Below are positions 2 to 36,719 of a DNA stretch of 36,719 bases, in pieces. The notes beneath the pieces are model-generated. The model saw nothing but the letters and a program-made list of their open reading frames with translations, ran no database searches and was not told the DNA's origin. Position numbers and translations under genes: made by a program. The stretch spans positions 1 through 36,719 of the forward strand of contig JADZCY010000137.1 in assembly GCA_020851325.1 (NCBI GenBank), given 5' to 3'. The number at the start of each line of letters is the position of its first letter. Position 1 is the first letter of the stretch. This DNA comes from Acidobacteriota bacterium (GTDB lineage: Bacteria > Acidobacteriota > Vicinamibacteria > Vicinamibacterales > UBA2999).

Positions 2-907
2 GCGCGGCCATCGGTGGCGCCATTGTTTGCGTTGGTGGATGGTGTCGAGTCGGTGGTGACGCTGCCGTCGCGGAGTGGCGTGGGATCGCTGCGCGCGTGG
101 AAGAGCGAGGCGGCGGCGCTGGTGAGTGGCGCTTATGACATTGCCGTCCTGCTGCCGAACTCGTTTGCCGCCGCGTGGCTGGCGGCGCGTGCCGGTATCG
201 GTGACAGGTGGGGATTCGCCGGCGACATGCGCGCGCGGCTGCTGACCAAGGCGATACCGAAGCCGAAAGGGCTGGTCCACCAGGGCGCGTATTACCAGGC
301 GCTCACCAGCGGCCTTGGCATCACCAGCGGTCCGCTGCACGCACAGGTGCGCGTGCCACCGCGGCCGGATGCGCTGCTTCCGCGAAGCGCCTACATCGTG
401 CTGGCGCCCGGCGCGGCCTACGGCAAGGCCAAGCAGTGGCCGGTGGAACACTTCGCGGCGCTCGCCACGCAACTGATCGACGCCGGTCAGGCCGTGGTGC
501 TCGTGGGCAGTCGTGCCGATCACTCCACCTGTGCCGCCATCGTCGCGCAGACGCGTGATGCATCTGCAGTGAGCAACCTGGCGGGACGGACGTCGCTGGC
601 CGAACTCACCGCGGTGCTTGGTCATGCCGACGCCGTGGTGTCGAACGACTCCGGCGCCATGCACCTCGCCGGCGCCACCGGCGTGCCTGTCGTGGCGCTG
701 TTCGGCGCCACCAACGAACATCGCACGGCGCCGCTCGGCAATGGTCCGACGGCGACGCCGCCCGCCGTGCTGACGGCAGCGGCGTGGTGCCGTCCGTGCA
801 TGCTGCGCGAATGCCCGATCGATCACCACTGCATGACGGGCATCACGCCCGAGCGCGCGGCTGTCGCGACGCTCGAAGCGGCGGGGAAACGGGGACAACG
901 GTCGTGA
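2..907 (+). CDS. waaF: Lipopolysaccharide heptosyltransferase II (GT9), 5' truncated
   Basis: This GT9 enzyme transfers the second heptose from ADP-heptose onto the LPS inner core at the cytoplasmic face of the inner membrane. The reading frame is open to the window edge and roughly the first 40-50 residues of the N-terminal domain are missing, so the true start lies upstream. Visible signatures are the PGAAYGKAKQWP motif near residue 135, the VSNDSGAMHLAGATG donor-site motif near residue 215, and the C-terminal cysteine/histidine cluster CRPCMLRECPIDHHCM, which is characteristic of the heptosyltransferase II branch. It is the first of a heptose operon and overlaps gmhB by 4 nt (GTGA). Family assignment is firm; acceptor specificity is inferred from the neighbours. 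Confidence 0.88.
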   Translation, partial: ARPSVAPLFALVDGVESVVTLPSRSGVGSLRAWKSEAAALVSGAYDIAVLLPNSFAAAWLAARAGIGDRWGFAGDMRARLLTKAIPKPKGLVHQGAYYQALTSGLGITSGPLHAQVRVPPRPDALLPRSAYIVLAPGAAYGKAKQWPVEHFAALATQLIDAGQAVVLVGSRADHSTCAAIVAQTRDASAVSNLAGRTSLAELTAVLGHADAVVSNDSGAMHLAGATGVPVVALFGATNEHRTAPLGNGPTATPPAVLTAAAWCRPCMLRECPIDHHCMTGITPERAAVATLEAAGKRGQRS

Positions 908-1584
908 CGACGGCGGGAAGTGGACCCGGCTTCGCCGGGGATGACCGGGAGGCGGGAGGCGGGAGGCGGCCGGCCGTGTTCCTCGATCGCGACGGCACCA
1001 TCAACGAAGACGTCGGCTACATGACCGACCTCGCGCAGCTCAGGATCTACCCCTACGCGCCTGACGCGATTCGCCTGCTTCGCCGCGCCGGCTTTGCCAT
1101 CGTCGTCGTTACCAACCAGGGCGGCATCGCGCGCGGCTTGATGACGGCCGCCTACGTCGAAGACACCCATCGCCGCATCGCCGATCGACTGGCGCGCGCT
1201 GGCGCGCACGTCGATGCGTGGTTCTATTGCCCGCACCATCCGGCGTCGGTGATCGATGGACTCTCGACGCCGTGCGCGTGCCGCAAGCCCGGCATCGCCA
1301 TGCCGTCGGAGGCGGCGCGCTGCCATGGTCTGGACCTGTCGCGTTCGTGGGTCATCGGCGATCACTGGCGCGACGTGCAGATGGGCTATGCCGCCGGCAT
1401 GCGCGCCATCCTGCTGCGCACGGGACACGGCCGCGATCAGGAGCAGCAGCGGCCGCCGGATCAGCGCGTCGAGGCCATCTGCGATAACCTGATGGCCGCC
1501 GTCGCCGTGATTCTCGGATCGCGGCCCGAGCCGTCGCCCGCCGGCATTGCGGCGCGCGAAGAACAAAACAGGCCGAAAGCGTGA
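904..1584 (+). CDS. gmhB: D-glycero-D-manno-heptose 1,7-bisphosphate phosphatase (HAD family)
   Basis: It removes the C7... or C1-side phosphate step of ADP-heptose synthesis as a HAD-IIIA phosphatase acting on heptose 1,7-bisphosphate. The nucleophile motif DRDGT is at residues 28-32, VVVTNQGG follows, and the zinc loop is C109, H111, C124, C126 (CPHHP...CACRKPG); GDHWRD supplies the late acidic residues. I chose GTG 904, which overlaps the waaF stop as GTGA; the open frame extends back to 784 but only through the end of waaF. The protein is 226 aa, with an unusually long N-terminus: the residues before the HAD core are encoded by a hairpin (925-939) and a 7-bp repeat run (946-973). A later start is possible but no good one is visible. 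Which phosphate is removed follows the family, not this sequence. Confidence 0.9.
   Translation: MTTAGSGPGFAGDDREAGGGRRPAVFLDRDGTINEDVGYMTDLAQLRIYPYAPDAIRLLRRAGFAIVVVTNQGGIARGLMTAAYVEDTHRRIADRLARAGAHVDAWFYCPHHPASVIDGLSTPCACRKPGIAMPSEAARCHGLDLSRSWVIGDHWRDVQMGYAAGMRAILLRTGHGRDQEQQRPPDQRVEAICDNLMAAVAVILGSRPEPSPAGIAAREEQNRPKA
925..939. repeat. Palindromic REP-like hairpin inside gmhB
   Basis: CCCGGC-TTC-GCCGGG is a perfect 6-bp stem with a 3-nt loop. It is flanked by GGA on the left and GATGA on the right, an arrangement resembling the GGACC-hairpin-GGATCA units at 23846-23957. It lies in the N-terminal codons of gmhB. Confidence 0.55.
946..973 (+). repeat. 7-bp tandem repeat CGGGAGG in the gmhB N-terminus
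   Basis: Three perfect CGGGAGG units at 946-966 are followed by a degenerate one (CGGCCGG). They are translated as a Gly/Arg/Glu-rich stretch before the HAD core. The reverse complement, CCTCCCG, is the unit of the array at 8754-8788 upstream of pdxA. Confidence 0.8.
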
Positions 1585-2564
1585 TGACGGAGATCGTTCG
1601 GAAGTTCGCGGCGGCGCGCGTCGTCGTCATCGGCGACCTCATCGCCGACGAGTACGTGTATGGCCGGGTGGCGCGCGTGTCGCGCGAGGCGCCGGTGCTG
1701 ATCCTCGAATACGACTCCACCGAAGTGGTGCCGGGCGGCGCCGGCAACGCTGCCGCCAACGCCGCGGCGCTTGGCGCGCGCGTGCAACTGGTGTCGCTGG
1801 CCGGTCGCGACGAAGCCGGCCGCCGCGTGCAGAAGGCGCTGCCATCACGCGTCGCGCACACCGGTCTGGTGCGTCCGGCCGGTTTCCGCACGCCGGTCAA
1901 GACGCGCATCCTCGCCGGCGGCATCCATTCGACGAAGCAGCAGGTGGTGCGTATCGATCGCCTGCCGCGACGCGAGATCACCGAGGGCGATCGCAACGCG
2001 GTGCTGCTGAAGTCGCTGGCCGCCATCCAGCGCGCGGACGCCGTGCTGATCTCGGACTACGGTTCCGGACTGGCGACACCGGCGCTGGCGCGCCGCCTGG
2101 CTGAACATGTGCGCGGCACGGGCGTGCCCATCCTCGTCGATTCGCGCTACGCGTTGACGCGCTACCGCGGCCTCACCGCCTGCGCACCGAATGAATCGGA
2201 AGTGGAACAGGCGCTCGACATCCGCATCGACGACAATCCGCGCATCCTCGAACGCGCCGGCCGTCAACTGCTCAAGACGACGCGCATGAAAGCGGTGATC
2301 ATCACGCGCGGCAGCCGCGGTATGGCGGTGTTCGAACCCGACACCCCGACCGTGCACATCCCCGTGCACGGCACCGACGAAGTGGCGGACGTGACCGGCG
2401 CCGGCGACACGGTGATGGCCACGCTCACGCTGGCGCTCGCCGCCGGCGCGACGATGGCGGATGCCGCCAAGCTGGCCAACATTGCCGGCGGGCTCGTGGT
2501 GATGAAGCGCGGCACGGCCACCGTGGCGGCGGCCGAACTCCGCCGCGCCCTCGGGAGCCTCTGA
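1581..2564 (+). CDS. rfaE1: D-glycero-beta-D-manno-heptose-7-phosphate kinase (PfkB family)
   Basis: This PfkB-family kinase phosphorylates heptose 7-phosphate at C1 in ADP-heptose synthesis. It corresponds to the N-terminal half of E. coli HldE. The N-terminal GD and GGAGNAAANAAALGA substrate/glycine motif (about residues 52-65) and the C-terminal DVTGAGDT signature (D270-T277, with D276 as catalytic base) are present. The length of 327 aa suits a stand-alone kinase; the adenylyltransferase half is encoded separately at 4038. The start is GTG 1581, overlapping the gmhB stop; ATG 1584 immediately after is equally possible. Confidence 0.92.
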   Translation: MMTEIVRKFAAARVVVIGDLIADEYVYGRVARVSREAPVLILEYDSTEVVPGGAGNAAANAAALGARVQLVSLAGRDEAGRRVQKALPSRVAHTGLVRPAGFRTPVKTRILAGGIHSTKQQVVRIDRLPRREITEGDRNAVLLKSLAAIQRADAVLISDYGSGLATPALARRLAEHVRGTGVPILVDSRYALTRYRGLTACAPNESEVEQALDIRIDDNPRILERAGRQLLKTTRMKAVIITRGSRGMAVFEPDTPTVHIPVHGTDEVADVTGAGDTVMATLTLALAAGATMADAAKLANIAGGLVVMKRGTATVAAAELRRALGSL

Positions 2565-2569
2565 CGGCC

Positions 2570-4045
2570 GTGTCCGCTGCCGGCGGCTACGCGCTCGTCG
2601 TCCTGCAGACCTTCGTCGTCGCCGCGCTGGCGACGTGGACGGTCCGGGGCGTGGCGAGGCGGCGCGGCTGGCTGGCGCCAACGCGTCCCGACCGCTGGCA
2701 CAGCGAACCGACGGCGCTCTACGGCGGCGTCGGCATCTTCGCCGGCTTCGCGCTCGGCCTGCTGTGGCACGTGCCGTGGTCGCCGTACATGGCCACGCTG
2801 CTCGTCCTCACCGGCGCGATGTTCGCCACCGGCCTGGTGGATGACGCGCTCGACATCCGGCCGCAGACGAAAGTGGGATTGCAGATCGCGGGCGGGCTGC
2901 TGCTCTACGCCGGCGGTTTCAACTTCAACGAAGTGTTCCCGTGGTGGTTCGACCTCGGTGTCGTCGTGTTCTGGGTGGTGGCGATCACCAACGCGATGAA
3001 CCTGCTCGACAACATGAACGGCCTGGCGGCGGGGACGGCGGTGATTGCCGGTCTGTCGCGGCTGATGCTGTCGCACGACACCGGCAACCTCGAAGGCGCG
3101 CTCGCCAGTGCGGTGCTCGTCGGCGCCGTACTCGGCTTTCTCGTCTTCAACTTTCCGCGCGCCTCGATCTTCATGGGCGACGGCGGCAGCTTCACCATCG
3201 GCTTCGCGCTGGCGGCGCTGAACTTGTCGAACGGGCAGGCGTACACGAAGAGCACGTTCTCGATCTTCATCTTTCCCGTCGTGGCGCTGGCGCTGCCGAT
3301 CTTCGACACGGCGTTCGTGTCGGTGGTGCGCTACTTCTCGGGACGCGCCATCAGCCAGGGCGGGCGTGATCACACCTCACATCGTCTCGTGGCGATCGGC
3401 TTGAGCGAGACGTGGGCGGTGGTGATCCTGTGGATCATCTCGGCGGCCTCGGGCGTCATCGCGTATCTGCTGTATCACGTCGGCTTCTCGTACGCGGTAT
3501 ACGCGATGGCCATCGTGGTGCTGGGCCTGGCGCTGTTCGGTATCGTGCTGTCGCGCGTCCGCGTCTACGCCGAAGGCGCCGCGCCCGATGGTCCGGCGGC
3601 GGCATGGGGTTTCACGCTGCGGGGGGAGCTGCTCTACAAGCGGCAGATCCTGTGGGTGTTGCTCGACGCCATCACCGTCGTGCTGGTGCTTGGCGCCGTG
3701 CTGCCGGTGCCCACCGGGGCGGCGAGCAGCGTCGAGGCGTCGTCCATGGGCGTCGCATCGGCGGCGTCGGCGGCCAGCGTGCTGATGGGGCTGTTCGCAC
3801 TCGGGTTGTATCGCTGGGACTGGATTCAGTTCGGCTGGCCGGTGCTGGCGCGGGTGATTGCCGGCGCGCTGCTCGGGGTGGTCGCCATCTTCATCTGGGA
3901 GCGCGTCGTTGCCGTGGCTGTGCCGTCGGCGCCGCTCGATCTCGCCGCGGCGTGGCTGGCCATCATCGCGGCGATCTGCGGCACGCGTATTCTCGTCCGC
4001 GGGATGGACGCGTGGCTGCACCGCCTCGGAGGCCGTCGTGGCTGA
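2570..4045 (+). CDS. WecA/MraY-type polyprenyl-phosphate glycosyl-1-phosphate transferase with extra C-terminal membrane module
   Basis: This integral membrane enzyme is expected to load a sugar phosphate from a UDP-sugar onto undecaprenyl phosphate, the first step of lipid-linked glycan assembly. Family motifs are visible: DDALDIRP (about residues 88-95), the [15 protein letters not shown] loop (about 142-156), MGDGGS (about 203), and the [10 protein letters not shown] loop near residue 264. The usual WecA core ends near residue 340. Residues about 353-491 add further membrane segments beginning [14 protein letters not shown] and containing a GLYRWDW motif, resembling the N-terminal membrane region of CapD/FlaA1-type proteins. 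Start GTG 2570 is 5 nt after the rfaE1 stop; the end overlaps rfaE2 by 8 nt. Sugar specificity cannot be read. Confidence 0.85.
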
Positions 4046-4520
4046 GATTCTGACGCGCGACGCGCTGGCCGATCGCGTGCGCGAGGCCCGTGCGCGGGGC
4101 GTGAGGTTCGCGTTCGCGAATGGCGCGTTCGACCTGCTGCACGTCGGACACATCCGTTACCTCGAAGCCGCCGCGCGCGAAGCAGACGCGCTGATCGTCG
4201 CCGTGAATGACGATGAGTCGGTGCGCGCGAGCAAGGGACCGCATCGTCCGGTGATGCCGGCGGCCGATCGCGCGGAACTCATCGCCGCCTTGCGTGCCGT
4301 GGATTTCGTCGTCATCTTCAACGAGCCAACGGTGACGCCGCTCCTCGAACTGCTGCACCCCGACGTGCACTGCAAGGGCACGGACTACACCGTCGACACC
4401 GTCCCCGAGCGCGATACCGTGCGCGCCTACGGCGGCCGCATCGCCATCGTCGGCGATCCGAAGGATCATTCGACGACGGAGACGCTGCAAAAGGTGCTGA
4501 AGGGTGCTGAGAGGTGCTGA
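4038..4520 (+). CDS. rfaE2: D-glycero-beta-D-manno-heptose 1-phosphate adenylyltransferase
   Basis: It makes ADP-heptose from heptose 1-phosphate and ATP, and corresponds to the C-terminal half of HldE. The nucleotidyltransferase HxGH motif is H35-V-G-H38, preceded by [25 protein letters not shown] and [10 protein letters not shown] follow as in RfaE2 proteins. The length is 160 aa, normal for the stand-alone form. I chose GTG 4038 because GGAGG (4028-4032) lies 5 nt upstream; the frame extends back to 3858 but only inside the preceding gene. The last residues and the TGA stop are supplied by a 10-bp repeat array beginning at 4491. Confidence 0.92.
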
Positions 4521-32409: not shown

Positions 32410-33366
32410 ATGCATGCATTCGTGACCGGCGGCGCCGGCTTCATCGGTAGTTCTCTGGTCGATCGCCTGCTGGCCGACGGCCACTCCGTGGTGGCGTTCG
32501 ACAACTTTTCTACCGGGCAGCGCGCCTTCCTCGACGGTGCGTCCGCCCACGCCAGCTTCACCCTCGTCGAAGGCGATACGCTCGACCTGCCGGCGCTCAC
32601 CGCGGCCATGGCCGGCTGTGATGTCGTCTTCCACCTCGCCGCCAACGCCGACGTGCGCTTCGGCACCGAGCATCCGCGCCGCGATCTCGAACAGAACACC
32701 ATCGCGACGTTCAACGTGCTCGAGGCCATGCGCGCCACCGGCATTCGCCGCATCGCGTTCTCGTCCACCGGCTCGGTGTACGGCGAAGCGCACGTGTTCC
32801 CGACGCCGGAGGACGCACCATTTCCCGTGCAGACATCGCTGTATGGGGCGTCGAAGCTCGCCGGCGAAGGGTTGATTGCGGCATACGCCAGCGGTTTCGG
32901 CTTCGAAGGCTGCGTCTTCCGCTTCGTGTCCATCCTCGGCGAGCGCTACACGCACGGGCACGTGTTCGACTTCTACAAGAGCCTGCGCGCCGATCCGACG
33001 CGGCTGCGCGTGCTCGGCAACGGCAAGCAGCGGAAGTCGTACCTCTACATCGGTGACTGCCTCGACGCGATGCTGCTGGCGATGCGCCGCACGCGGAACG
33101 CCGTCGAGATCTACAACCTTGGCACCGACGAGTACTGCGAGGTGAACGACTCCATCGGCTGGATCTGCGGCCGGCTCGGCATCGATCCCGTGCGCGAGTA
33201 CACCGGCGGCGAGCGCGGGTGGATCGGCGACAACCCGTTCATCTTTCTCGACACCGCGAAGATCCGCGGGCTCGGCTGGCGTCCGAAGCTGACGATCGAA
33301 CAGGGCATCGTCCGCACGCTGGAATATCTGCAGGCGCATCCCGAGATCCTCGAGGCGCGCGCATGA
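32410..33366 (+). CDS. NAD-dependent nucleotide-sugar epimerase (GalE-like extended SDR)
   Basis: A 318-aa extended SDR predicted to epimerise or modify a UDP-sugar. FVTGGAGFIGSSLVDRLL is the NAD-binding motif, HLAANADVR and SSTGSVYGEA (Ser/Thr) precede the catalytic pair in YGASKLAGE, and VFRFVSILGERY and GKQRKSYLYIGDC match GalE-like sugar epimerases. The start ATG 32410 is 39 nt from the divergent giant gene; the large open frame running back to 28213 is only the antisense of that gene. The stop overlaps the next gene by 4 nt. The substrate is unknown; UDP-glucose or UDP-glucuronate are the family defaults. Confidence 0.87.
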   Translation: MHAFVTGGAGFIGSSLVDRLLADGHSVVAFDNFSTGQRAFLDGASAHASFTLVEGDTLDLPALTAAMAGCDVVFHLAANADVRFGTEHPRRDLEQNTIATFNVLEAMRATGIRRIAFSSTGSVYGEAHVFPTPEDAPFPVQTSLYGASKLAGEGLIAAYASGFGFEGCVFRFVSILGERYTHGHVFDFYKSLRADPTRLRVLGNGKQRKSYLYIGDCLDAMLLAMRRTRNAVEIYNLGTDEYCEVNDSIGWICGRLGIDPVREYTGGERGWIGDNPFIFLDTAKIRGLGWRPKLTIEQGIVRTLEYLQAHPEILEARA

Positions 33367-34772
33367 AGGTGGCGGTGCTGGGGCTGTGGCACCTCGGTTC
33401 GGTGACGGCGGCATGCACGGCTGCGGCTGGACACGACGTGATCGGTTTCGATTCGGATGCCGCCACGGTGAACGGACTGCAGCGCGCGCGCCCGCCGGTG
33501 AATGAACCGGGCCTGGCGGATCTACTCACCACCGAGATGACTGCGGGACGTCTTCGCTTCACCATCGACCGCGATGCTGCGGTGGATGGCGCGGATGTCG
33601 TGTGGGTGACCATCGACACGCCGGTCGATGACGATGACCATGCGGATGTCGATGCGGTGGTCGCCGAGGTGGAGCGTTCGTTCGCGGCCCTGCGCGATCG
33701 CACCGTGGTGCTCATCTCGTCGCAGGTGCCGGTCGGGACGACGGCGCGGTTGGAGCAGTCGTTCGCTGGCGTCGCCGCCGGGCGCACCGTGGCGTTCGCG
33801 TGTTCACCGGAGAACCTTCGGCTCGGCAAGGCGATTGACGTGTTCACGCATCCCGATCGCGTCGTGATCGGTGTGCGCGAGGCGTGGGCGCGCGAGCGTC
33901 TGCAGGCGCTGTTTGCACCGATTACGGATCGCCTCGAGTGGATGAGCGTGGAATCGGCGGAGATGACCAAGCACGCGATCAACGCGTTCCTGGCGACGTC
34001 GGTCACGTTCATCAACGAGATTGCGGCACTCTGTGAGCAGGCCGGCGCCGACGCGAAGGAAGTGGAGCGCGGACTGAAGACCGAGAAGCGCATTGGTCCC
34101 GGCGCGTATCTGGGGCCAGGCGGCGCGTTTGCCGGCGGCACGCTGGCGCGTGACGTCGTCTTCCTGCGCGCGCTGGGCGGTCAGGTACAGCGCGAGACGC
34201 CACTGATGGATGGCGTCGAGTCATCGAACCGTTCGCATCGCCAGTGGCCGCGTCGACGGCTGGTATCCGTGCTCGGACCGCTCGCCGGTCGCACCGTCGC
34301 CGTGTGGGGACTCACGTACAAACCGGGTACCGACACGCTGCGGCGCTCGACGGCGGTGGAACTGTGCCGCTGGTTGATCGAACAGGGCGCCGTCGTTCGT
34401 GCACACGATCCGCAGGCTATGGACCTACCTGCGGAACTTGCCGGTGTCACGCGAACAGCAACACCGGAAGAGGCCGCCGCCGGCGCCGACGCGATCGTCG
34501 TGGCCACTGAATGGCCGGAGTACCGCCGCGTCGATCTCGACGTGGTTGCGCGCGGTCTGCGCGCGCCAGGGCCTGAGGGTTCGGCCGCCAGTCCTCCAGC
34601 CCCCCAGTCTTCCAGACCGCCAGTCCCCCAGTCTTCCAGTCCTCCAGTCCCCCAGCCCTCCAGCCCTCTGTTCCCTGTCATCGATGCGAACGGTTTCCTT
34701 CGCGCCACGATCGGCCAGGACGCGCGGTTCTCTCTCGTCAGTGTCGGCGCGCCGGCGCGCGTCGACAAGTGA
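33363..34772 (+). CDS. UDP-glucose/GDP-mannose dehydrogenase homologue lacking the catalytic cysteine
   Basis: A 469-aa three-domain protein of the UDP-glucose dehydrogenase family. The N-terminal VAVLGLWHLGSVTAAC Rossmann motif, VTIDTPVDDDD, SSQVPVGTT, FACSPENLRLGKAI and EMTKHAINAFLATSVTFINE (K203, N207) are intact. The usual GGSCFPKD site reads GGAFAGGTLARD: the nucleophilic Cys is Thr260 and the following Lys is Arg. Two-step oxidation to a uronate normally needs that Cys, so the reaction may stop early or differ. In the C-terminal domain a Pro/Ser-rich run (residues about 409-436) comes from ten 8-bp repeats. The start ATG 33363 overlaps the epimerase stop. Confidence 0.85.
   Translation: MKVAVLGLWHLGSVTAACTAAAGHDVIGFDSDAATVNGLQRARPPVNEPGLADLLTTEMTAGRLRFTIDRDAAVDGADVVWVTIDTPVDDDDHADVDAVVAEVERSFAALRDRTVVLISSQVPVGTTARLEQSFAGVAAGRTVAFACSPENLRLGKAIDVFTHPDRVVIGVREAWARERLQALFAPITDRLEWMSVESAEMTKHAINAFLATSVTFINEIAALCEQAGADAKEVERGLKTEKRIGPGAYLGPGGAFAGGTLARDVVFLRALGGQVQRETPLMDGVESSNRSHRQWPRRRLVSVLGPLAGRTVAVWGLTYKPGTDTLRRSTAVELCRWLIEQGAVVRAHDPQAMDLPAELAGVTRTATPEEAAAGADAIVVATEWPEYRRVDLDVVARGLRAPGPEGSAASPPAPQSSRPPVPQSSSPPVPQPSSPLFPVIDANGFLRATIGQDARFSLVSVGAPARVDK
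34589..34668 (+). repeat. 8-bp tandem repeat CAGYCYYC, ten units, in coding sequence
   Basis: Ten units in exact 8-bp register lie in frame in the dehydrogenase gene. Three units make 24 nt, so the protein shows an 8-residue period (PPAPQSSR, PPVPQSSS, PPVPQPSS). It lies in the loop before the VIDANGF strand of the C-terminal domain. Confidence 0.95.
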
Positions 34773-35665
34773 CGCCCTCGCATCTCGCCATGTCCTTACC
34801 GCTTTACGCACGCTCCGCCCTCATCACCGGCGCCAGCCAGGGCCTCGGCCTGGCGATCGCGCGCGCCTACGTGCGGGCCGGCGCCAGCGTCACGCTGTGC
34901 GCGCGTGACGAAGCGATGCTGGAGCGCGCGCGCGACGAAGTGGCATCGCTCGCCGGGCCCGAACAGACCGTGCACGCGATGCGCGCGGACGTGTCGAACG
35001 CCGACGATGTGTCGCGGCTGGTGACGACCGCTGTCGAGCGGCTTGGCGGCCTGCACGTACTGGTGAACAACGCCGGCGTGTACGGACCGATGGGCAGTCT
35101 CGACGCCATCGACTGGGCCGAGTGGACGCGCGCGATGGCGATCAACATCGACGGCTCGGCGCTGCCAATGCGGGCCGTGCTGCCGCACTTTCGGAAACAG
35201 CGCTACGGCAAGATCGTCCAGCTTTCTGGCGGCGGCGCCACCAATCCACTGCCGCGCATCGTCGCTTACGCCGCGGCCAAGGCGGCGATCGTGCGCCTTG
35301 CCGAATGCGTCGCGGTGGACGTGAAAGACGACGGCATCGACGTCAACTGCATCGCGCCCGGCGCCCTCAACACACGGATGATGGATCAACTGCTGGAGGC
35401 TGGTGCCGCGACTGTCGGTGAAGGCTTCTACGCCCGCATGAAGACGCTGGCCGAGGGCGGCACGACGCCGCTGGAGATCGGCGCGGCGCTGGCGGTGTAT
35501 CTCGGCTCTCCGGAGAGCGACGGCATCACCGGCCGGTTGATTTCGGCGCCGTGGGACCCGTGGGAGCGGCTACAGACACATCGCGACGATCTCGACGGCT
35601 CCGACATCTACACGCTGCGCCGCATCGTTCCGAAGGATCGCGGCAAGACATGGGGGGATCGATGA
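34769..35665 (+). CDS. Short-chain dehydrogenase/reductase
   Basis: A classical SDR: TGASQGLGLAIA cofactor site, NNAG (VLVNNAGVYG), catalytic Ser in IVQLSGGGA, and YAAAK with the catalytic Tyr and Lys; NCIAPGALNTRM follows as usual. The C-terminal extension ending DPWERLQTHRDDLDGSDIYTLRRI is longer than in generic SDRs and seems specific to this group. The start GTG 34769 overlaps the dehydrogenase stop; ATG 34790 would give the more usual distance to the cofactor motif. Its position between a UDP-sugar dehydrogenase homologue and a Gfo/Idh enzyme suggests a sugar nucleotide or sugar substrate, which is inference. Confidence 0.87.
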   Translation: MTPSHLAMSLPLYARSALITGASQGLGLAIARAYVRAGASVTLCARDEAMLERARDEVASLAGPEQTVHAMRADVSNADDVSRLVTTAVERLGGLHVLVNNAGVYGPMGSLDAIDWAEWTRAMAINIDGSALPMRAVLPHFRKQRYGKIVQLSGGGATNPLPRIVAYAAAKAAIVRLAECVAVDVKDDGIDVNCIAPGALNTRMMDQLLEAGAATVGEGFYARMKTLAEGGTTPLEIGAALAVYLGSPESDGITGRLISAPWDPWERLQTHRDDLDGSDIYTLRRIVPKDRGKTWGDR

Positions 35666-36719
35666 GCTACGGCGTGGCCATCGTCGGCTGCGGCCTGATC
35701 GGCCGCAAGCGCGCCGCGGCGTTGCCCGGCGGTCATCTGGTGGCGTGCGCGGATCTCGATCTTGCGCGCGCGGAAGCGCTGGCGCGCTCGTATCGGAGCG
35801 ACGGCACTTCAGTCCCGTCGGCGACATCAGGTGCGGCTTCCGCGGGCGGCGATCGATCGGTCGCGTCCGCTCCCGCGCCCGTCGCCGTGCCGCGATGGGA
35901 AGACGCCGTCACACGCACCGACGTGGACATCGTCGTCGTCGCGACGACGAATGACGCGTTGGCGGCGGTGACGAAGGGCGCGCTCGACGCCGGCAAGCAC
36001 GTGCTGGTGGAGAAGCCGGCGGCGCGAACCGTCGCCGAAGTCGAGCCGCTGATCGACATCGCGCGTGCGAAGGACCTGCGTGTGCGTGTCGGCTTCAATC
36101 ACCGCTATCATCCCGCGCTGCAGAAGGCACACGAGATCATCACGAGCGGCGCGCTCGGACCGTTGATGTTCATGCGCGGGCGCTACGGCCACGGCGGCCG
36201 CGTCGGCTACGACCGCGAGTGGCGCGCCAATCCGGCGCTCTCCGGTGGCGGCGAGCTCATCGATCAGGGCGTGCACCTGATCGACCTGTCACGCTGGTTC
36301 CTCGGCGACTTCCCGACGGTGGACGGCTTTGCCGCAACGTATTTCTGGGACATGCCGGTGGACGACAACGCGTTCCTGACGCTGCGCACGGCCACTGGAC
36401 AAGCGGCGTTCCTGCACGTGAGCTGCAGCGAATGGAAGAACCTGTTCTCGCTGGAGGTCTACGGGCGTGACGGCAAGCTCGCCATCGATGGCCTCGGCGG
36501 CAGCTACGGTGTCGAGCGCCTCACCTGGTATCAGATGCTGCCCGAGATGGGTCCGCCGGACACGACGAGCTGGGAGTATCCGCGCGGCGATCGCTCATGG
36601 GCGCTGGAGTTCGCGGCGTTCGTGCAGGACATCGACGCCGTGCGCGAGCCCGATCCCGGCTTGCGCGACGCCCGCGCCGCACTGCTGATCGTCGAAGATA
36701 TCTACCGCCGCAGCGGCTA
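35662..36719 (+). CDS. Gfo/Idh/MocA family oxidoreductase, cut by the window end
   Basis: NAD(P)-dependent sugar or inositol oxidoreductase family. The N-terminal VAIVGCGLIGRKRAAAL motif, VVVATTNDALA, the HVLVEKPAA motif (K118) and the GGGELIDQGVHLIDLSRWF motif with the family histidine are present. The frame is open to the last base (352 codons plus 2 nt, ending in TA), so the stop may be just beyond. Residues about 46-76 (from SDGTSVPSATSG to APAPVAVP) are an insertion in the NAD domain before the strand TDVDIVVVAT, and contain a REP-like hairpin at DNA level. The start ATG 35662 overlaps the SDR stop; GGGGGG (35652-35657) is the likely ribosome-binding site. Confidence 0.88.
   Translation, partial: MSYGVAIVGCGLIGRKRAAALPGGHLVACADLDLARAEALARSYRSDGTSVPSATSGAASAGGDRSVASAPAPVAVPRWEDAVTRTDVDIVVVATTNDALAAVTKGALDAGKHVLVEKPAARTVAEVEPLIDIARAKDLRVRVGFNHRYHPALQKAHEIITSGALGPLMFMRGRYGHGGRVGYDREWRANPALSGGGELIDQGVHLIDLSRWFLGDFPTVDGFAATYFWDMPVDDNAFLTLRTATGQAAFLHVSCSEWKNLFSLEVYGRDGKLAIDGLGGSYGVERLTWYQMLPEMGPPDTTSWEYPRGDRSWALEFAAFVQDIDAVREPDPGLRDARAALLIVEDIYRRSG
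35800..35819. repeat. Hairpin repeat inside the Gfo/Idh gene
   Basis: GACGGCACT-TC-AGTCCCGTC is a 9-bp stem with one mismatch. It lies in the low-complexity insertion in the NAD-binding domain and resembles the other REP-like hairpins of this window in size and GC content. Confidence 0.5.

Follow-up and report, generated by a model that had tools for sequence, protein, structure and literature searches.

Dehydrogenases of the UDP-glucose dehydrogenase (UGDH) type act on the primary alcohol at C6 of a hexose, first oxidizing it to an aldehyde; a catalytic cysteine traps this aldehyde, and a second oxidation yields the acid. LmbL, from the biosynthesis of lincomycin, is presumably also a UGDH-type enzyme. 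According to work in PNAS from 2020, the steps on the lincomycin octose are reportedly 6-epimerization, 6,8-dehydration, 4-epimerization, and 6-transamination, and in the LmbL reaction the C8 hydroxyl is said to be lost and a hydride handed back to C8. Two papers (PMC4351081, PMC12945683) describe an octose branch consisting of a transaldolase (LmbR), an octulose-8-phosphate isomerase (LmbN), a kinase (LmbP), a phosphatase (LmbK), and a guanylyltransferase (LmbO), together with an epimerase (LmbM), a dehydrogenase (LmbL), an oxidoreductase (LmbZ), and an aminotransferase (LmbS). GDP-octose is converted to GDP-lincosamide by LmbM, LmbL, CcbZ, and CcbS (PMC12945683), and in the literature examined a straight-chain octose pathway is described only for lincosamides. 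Our search of the literature on lipopolysaccharide and GDP-heptose returned a paulomycin paper in which C-4 branched octoses are mentioned. A search for octoses in polysaccharides gave no mention of octose among the matches listed, and we found no paper linking octose, polysaccharide, and transaldolase, nor one stating which residue LmbL has at the catalytic cysteine position.

For the nucleotide diphosphate (NDP)-sugar dehydrogenases, PMC4794789 lists 18 residues, with their roles, that are invariant across 229 enzymes. Among the roles given there, Thr118 holds the catalytic water, and Tyr10, conserved in 98% of these enzymes, catalyzes hydrolysis of the thioester. We compared these residues with a gene, here called UGD, in a 36,719-nucleotide stretch of Acidobacteriota DNA (the window); all features described below lie on its forward strand. 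UGD (33363 to 34772) is an open reading frame of 469 amino acids, with all three UDPG_MGDP_dh Pfam domains (PF03721, PF00984, PF03720) above their cut-offs and a score of 310 bits against the NCBIfam nucleotide-sugar dehydrogenase model (cut-off 189.8). An AlphaFold model based on 75 alignment rows has a pLDDT of 91.8 and the full UGDH fold, matching 3gg2 with a Z score of 41.7 and an rmsd of 1.9 over 417 aligned residues at 33% identity. By its three domains and its fold, UGD is a member of the NDP-sugar dehydrogenase superfamily. Its C-terminal domain carries a low-complexity, proline/serine-rich insert (34569 to 34682, near residues 403–440), and relatives, with a median length of 432 amino acids, are without it. 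Translated stretches of contigs C31, C125, and C401 match the same part of the protein, so the insert may be a dispersed repeat of its own genome.

The active-site loop GGTLARD (residues 258–264; 34134 to 34154) reads LGPGGAFAGGTLARDVV, also given as GGAFAGGTLARD. In a HMMER alignment with solved UGDHs there are no gaps at the loop, and T260 (codon 34140 to 34142) therefore occupies the place of the nucleophilic cysteine; its number even coincides with that of Cys260 in Streptococcus pyogenes UGDH. The ungapped alignment also rules out deletion of the cysteine rather than its substitution. Threonine is present in 84 of 84 family members, which rules out sequencing error or chance, and D264 is present in 83 of 84. 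The threonine noticed in the sequence-only reading was thus confirmed, as was the retention of K203 and N207 (33969 to 33983), the lysine and asparagine of the first oxidation; K203, N207, and E150 are each found in all 84 members. Lys204, Asn208, and Asp264, assigned to the first oxidation, and Glu141 are each kept in 75 of 75 rows of a stricter alignment (A2), and K320 and R327, which bind substrate and NAD, are invariant or nearly so in the same number of sequences.

Residues assigned to the second oxidation were replaced throughout the family. The second Rossmann glycine is tryptophan in UGD (W9, 74 of 75 sequences), and Tyr10 is histidine (H10, 75 of 75; W9–H10 at 33387 to 33392; roles from PMC4794789). 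At S119–S120–Q121 (33717 to 33725), the invariant Thr118 is replaced by glutamine, in 77 of 77 family sequences and in all 75 rows of A2. Ordinary homologues in the fetched loci (n = 33) have the catalytic cysteine in 32, Tyr10 in 32, and Thr118 in all 33. Altogether, UGD retains 14 of the 18 invariant residues, the four changes being G9>W, T118>Q, G257>A, and C260>T. We also note that a relative from the same order (L115) has an ordinary-type UGDH homologue with the loop GGSGFAKD, with glycine at the catalytic cysteine and serine for Asn208.

Since Cys260, Tyr10, Thr118, Gly9, and Gly257 are all replaced, UGD does not qualify, judging by its residues, as a four-electron enzyme. The residues of the thioester step are replaced and those of the first oxidation are invariant, which suggests that the second half-reaction was lost and not activity overall. 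The earlier proposals that UGD lacks the second, cysteine-dependent oxidation, and that its gene is nonetheless not dead, both fit this pattern; the former is very probably correct, and the latter is supported. In the model, T260 begins a helix (260–274), and no cysteine is found at the catalytic site. The only near-invariant cysteine of the family, C224, lies in helix 196–227, 17 residues from N207 along the same helix, or some 25 Å as estimated from helical rise. It is present in all 33 ordinary homologues as well. A replacement cysteine elsewhere is thus ruled out, C224 being general to the superfamily and too far along the helix to be a substitute nucleophile; a nearby cysteine filling the site had been named beforehand as the observation that would count against the loss.

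These residue counts come from probing 84,980 species genomes with six peptides, a scan that gave 146 relatives; the best 80 were used here. None of the peptides came from the active-site loop, so the invariance of T260 is not circular, and its count refers to these best 80 of 146 relatives. The set of 84 consists of the 80 scan loci, three loci from related genomes (L093, L094, L096), and the window, with copies L089–L092 and L095 left out. Alignments A1 (77 rows) and A2 (75 rows) required a start codon, a stop codon, and a length of 400–480 amino acids. In a tree sampling 25 of the 77 family rows and 19 of the 33 ordinary homologues, the threonine-type rows form one side of a single branch (SH-aLRT 100). 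On this sequence evidence the threonine type is a clade of single origin, a point that the sequence-only reading had proposed to check.

The family is widespread and patchy. The best 80 of 146 relatives fall into 16 named phyla, apart from four loci of no assigned phylum; four of the records are archaeal. These four archaeal records (L060, L070, L075, L085, among them Thermoplasmata and Methanomicrobiales) have all or parts of the gene cassette described below and may reflect binning errors. When 59 genomes from the same order or nearer were compared, 9 of them, with the source genome counted, matched UGD with E below 1e-120, a value typical of this family, and ordinary homologues are general. 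Proteins of 60 genomes from the class to which G059 (the centre genome) belongs were also searched, and the family turned up in G059 alone.

UGD sits in a tight series of genes. Upstream is a predicted NAD-dependent epimerase (EPI, 32410 to 33366; Pfam Epimerase, 6e-50), in the place of LmbM and a proposed 6-epimerase. Downstream are a short-chain reductase (SDR, 34769 to 35665; Pfam adh_short, 2e-50), proposed to reduce a 6-ketone in the place of LmbS, and a Gfo/Idh/MocA oxidoreductase (GFO, 35662 to 36719; Pfam GFO_IDH_MocA and _C3) in a place like that of LmbZ and CcbZ. The EPI/UGD, UGD/SDR, and SDR/GFO junctions are 4-base overlaps, and the stop codon of GFO is cut by the contig end at 36719. 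The operon of four genes recognized earlier was therefore real but only the first half of a longer cassette, the contig end cutting off the rest.

The complete cassette consists of nine collinear genes in the order epimerase, UGD, SDR, Gfo/Idh, HddA-like kinase, nucleotidyltransferase, GmhA-like isomerase, GmhB-like phosphatase, and transaldolase. We looked for it among 85 loci (the 80 scan loci and L093, L094, L096, L131, and L132, with L119 reported apart), 46 of which were well flanked, meaning at least 950 bases upstream and at least 6,200 downstream. Clustering of the neighbors brought out, besides EPI, SDR, and Gfo/Idh, a GHMP kinase, a nucleotidyltransferase, a SIS-type isomerase, a HAD phosphatase, and a transaldolase, and cassette genes were then counted with trimmed queries. 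Across the 46 well-flanked loci, we found EPI in 43, SDR in 45, GFO in 43, the kinase in 43, the nucleotidyltransferase in 38, the isomerase in 37, the phosphatase in 34, and the transaldolase in 40. All nine genes were present in 34 of the 46, in a single order in 27, and 12 loci lacked at least one gene nearby, with L055 and L076 lacking most. The pairing with SDR and Gfo/Idh genes, which the sequence-only reading had proposed to check, held in nearly all of these loci. Protein distances covaried with those of UGD for EPI (r = 0.85), GFO (0.84), SDR (0.80), nucleotidyltransferase (0.74), isomerase (0.74), transaldolase (0.60), and kinase (0.59), which suggests that UGD, EPI, GFO, and SDR travel together, although kinship of the organisms raises such values too.

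Functional assignment of the five sugar-building genes was made with NCBIfam models on the proteins of Lawsonia intracellularis. Its transaldolase scores above the TIGR02134 cut-off and is the only one of the five to reach the cut-off of a named enzyme. The kinase is nearest HddA and the isomerase nearest GmhA, both far below those cut-offs; the phosphatase falls among histidinol and GmhB phosphatases, below their cut-offs; and the nucleotidyltransferase is nearest MurU, then HddC, far below the cut-off of HddC and also below that of MurU. In this intracellular bacterium of pigs, all nine genes are on the large plasmid pl01 (NZ_CP107055.1, L131), with an LPG-synthase-type membrane protein inserted. 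Extra neighbors in some loci include a GT2-type glycosyltransferase (31 loci) and a GtrA-type membrane protein (12 loci), which suggests that a lipid carrier conveys the product to a surface glycan.

In the source genome, the cassette is split over two contigs. On a small contig (C18), the final 21 kinase residues come first and the nucleotidyltransferase, isomerase, phosphatase, and transaldolase genes come next, so the contig break lies within the kinase gene or ahead of it. Beyond the transaldolase is a gene resembling GDP-mannose 4,6-dehydratases (L139:3233-4192). The genome of the same genus behind L119 has all nine genes on one contig. Another of the same genus (L120:7089-8988) retains an intact UGD, but its EPI is truncated, its SDR is cut down to the first 62 aligned residues, and its transaldolase is a 43-residue piece; a frame similar to the dehydratase-like gene follows. 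Either the cassette was deleted here or the contig is misassembled; the former neighborhood is still visible. The window also holds a separate ADP-heptose/lipopolysaccharide set at 2 to 4517, encoding heptosyltransferase II, a GmhB-like phosphatase, RfaE domain I, a WecA/MraY-like protein, and RfaE domain II.

The neighborhood of UGD is of the LmbL type, with transaldolase, isomerase, kinase, phosphatase, nucleotidyltransferase, epimerase, and oxidoreductase. There is no aminotransferase among the identified conserved neighbor clusters, which are part of all clusters, so the end product of the cassette would probably differ from the lincosamide. We found no lmb-like locus in Streptomycetaceae with two UGD-family motif scans (392 and 394 genomes) and a transaldolase motif scan (392 genomes), though lincosamide producers may not be among these genomes. 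The single hits of the two UGD-motif scans were chance matches in unrelated frames, and the transaldolase motif had 0 hits. The kinship with LmbL is argued here from gene content.

By analogy with LmbL, we infer a substrate and product for UGD and consider it probable that UGD is a redox-neutral, UGDH-fold enzyme acting on a nucleotide-activated octose (probably GDP-octose), that is, a C6-oxidizing 6,8-dehydratase. The transaldolase, isomerase, kinase, phosphatase, and nucleotidyltransferase would start from a C5 phosphate acceptor and assemble the NDP-octose, as LmbR, LmbN, LmbP, LmbK, and LmbO do, and EPI would invert C6. UGD would then oxidize the C6 carbinol to a ketone with bound NAD+, water would be lost across C7–C8, and the hydride would return to C8 to give a 6-keto-8-deoxy sugar, with T260, H10, Q121, and N151 lining the space for the C7–C8 tail. 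The Gfo/Idh protein would epimerize C4, and where LmbS transaminates the 6-ketone, SDR would reduce it; the resulting NDP-8-deoxy-octose would be used for a surface glycan. A cysteine would be useless in such an enzyme because a C6 bearing the C7–C8 tail gives a ketone, which cannot be oxidized further. A dehydratase would also have to keep NAD firmly bound and leave space for the tail, which fits the replacement of the thioester residues and of the Rossmann glycine.

The main rival to the octose is a heptose: the transaldolase would supply sedoheptulose 7-phosphate, the cassette would make GDP-heptose, and UGD would form a 6-ketone for reduction by SDR and epimerization by the Gfo/Idh protein. 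Because a heptose, too, has a secondary carbinol at C6, this reading accounts for the missing cysteine equally well, and the closest matches of the kinase, isomerase, and phosphatase are or include HddA, GmhA, and GmhB, with the nucleotidyltransferase scoring against HddC and higher against MurU. However, the C7 precursor of a heptose is a common metabolite, and a dedicated transaldolase would be superfluous. The transaldolase is present in 40 of 46 loci and is, going by PMC4351081, the lincosamide signature. Eight of the nine genes have lmb octose counterparts, and the source genome already has its ADP-heptose set, and on balance we consider a heptose unlikely.

Residue losses that spare the first oxidation would fit a two-electron dehydrogenase on any sugar, including one releasing an NDP-hexose 6-aldehyde for SDR and Gfo/Idh, as the sequence-only reading had suggested. 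That proposal gives no role to five of the nine conserved genes and did not find support: the transaldolase, phosphoheptose-isomerase-like, kinase, phosphatase, and nucleotidyltransferase genes point to an eight-carbon NDP-sugar, of which C6 is a secondary carbinol that would give a ketone, and the LmbL precedent would predict net dehydration, not oxidation. We thus regard the hexose aldehyde as improbable. Formation of a uronate, with threonine, another residue, or another cysteine as nucleophile, is very improbable: UGD does exceed the NCBIfam dehydrogenase cut-off, but every family row counted has other residues at Cys, Tyr10, and Thr118, and C224 is shared with ordinary homologues and remote along its helix. 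Tryptophan at the second Rossmann glycine could weaken NAD binding, as might be expected of a dead or purely structural homologue, yet the near-complete invariance of K203, N207, E150, D264, K320, and R327 makes this reading scarcely credible.

More broadly, we see roughly even chances that the cassette represents a general GDP-8-deoxy-octose pathway outside antibiotic clusters, found complete in at least ten bacterial phyla and in whole or part in archaea, and making an unrecognized surface sugar. Its hallmarks would be a UGDH-fold, hydride-recycling dehydratase arisen by replacement of Cys260, Tyr10, and Thr118, and an SDR in the role that an aminotransferase has for lincosamides; the octose genes of lincomycin would be an offshoot of this pathway. 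If so, the conserved, dispersed cassette would predict an unnoticed class of sugar on many environmental bacteria and some archaea, and would account for a set of proteins that carry the annotation nucleotide sugar dehydrogenase, for example in Lawsonia. It would also be a natural case of a single fold exchanging oxidation for dehydration.

Compared with known systems, UGD shares its whole fold and most invariant residues with the UDP-glucose, GDP-mannose, and UDP-ManNAc dehydrogenases (TIGR03026), but differs from them at Cys260, Tyr10, Thr118, Gly9, and Gly257. With the GDP-D-glycero-D-manno-heptose pathway (GmhA, HddA, GmhB, HddC), the cassette has in common the types of isomerase, GHMP kinase, HAD phosphatase, and nucleotidyltransferase, but it adds a transaldolase, and its isomerase, kinase, and nucleotidyltransferase are far below the GmhA, HddA, and HddC cut-offs. 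The closest likeness is to the LmbL/CcbL octose branch, in which LmbM, L, Z, P, O, N, K, and R match eight of the nine cassette genes by activity, and the lmb genes and the window cassette are alike in tight packing with 4-base overlaps. Unlike the lincomycin branch, the cassette has an SDR in place of the aminotransferase LmbS, keeps a fixed nine-gene order, and occurs in Gram-negative, archaeal, and polysaccharide-type contexts.
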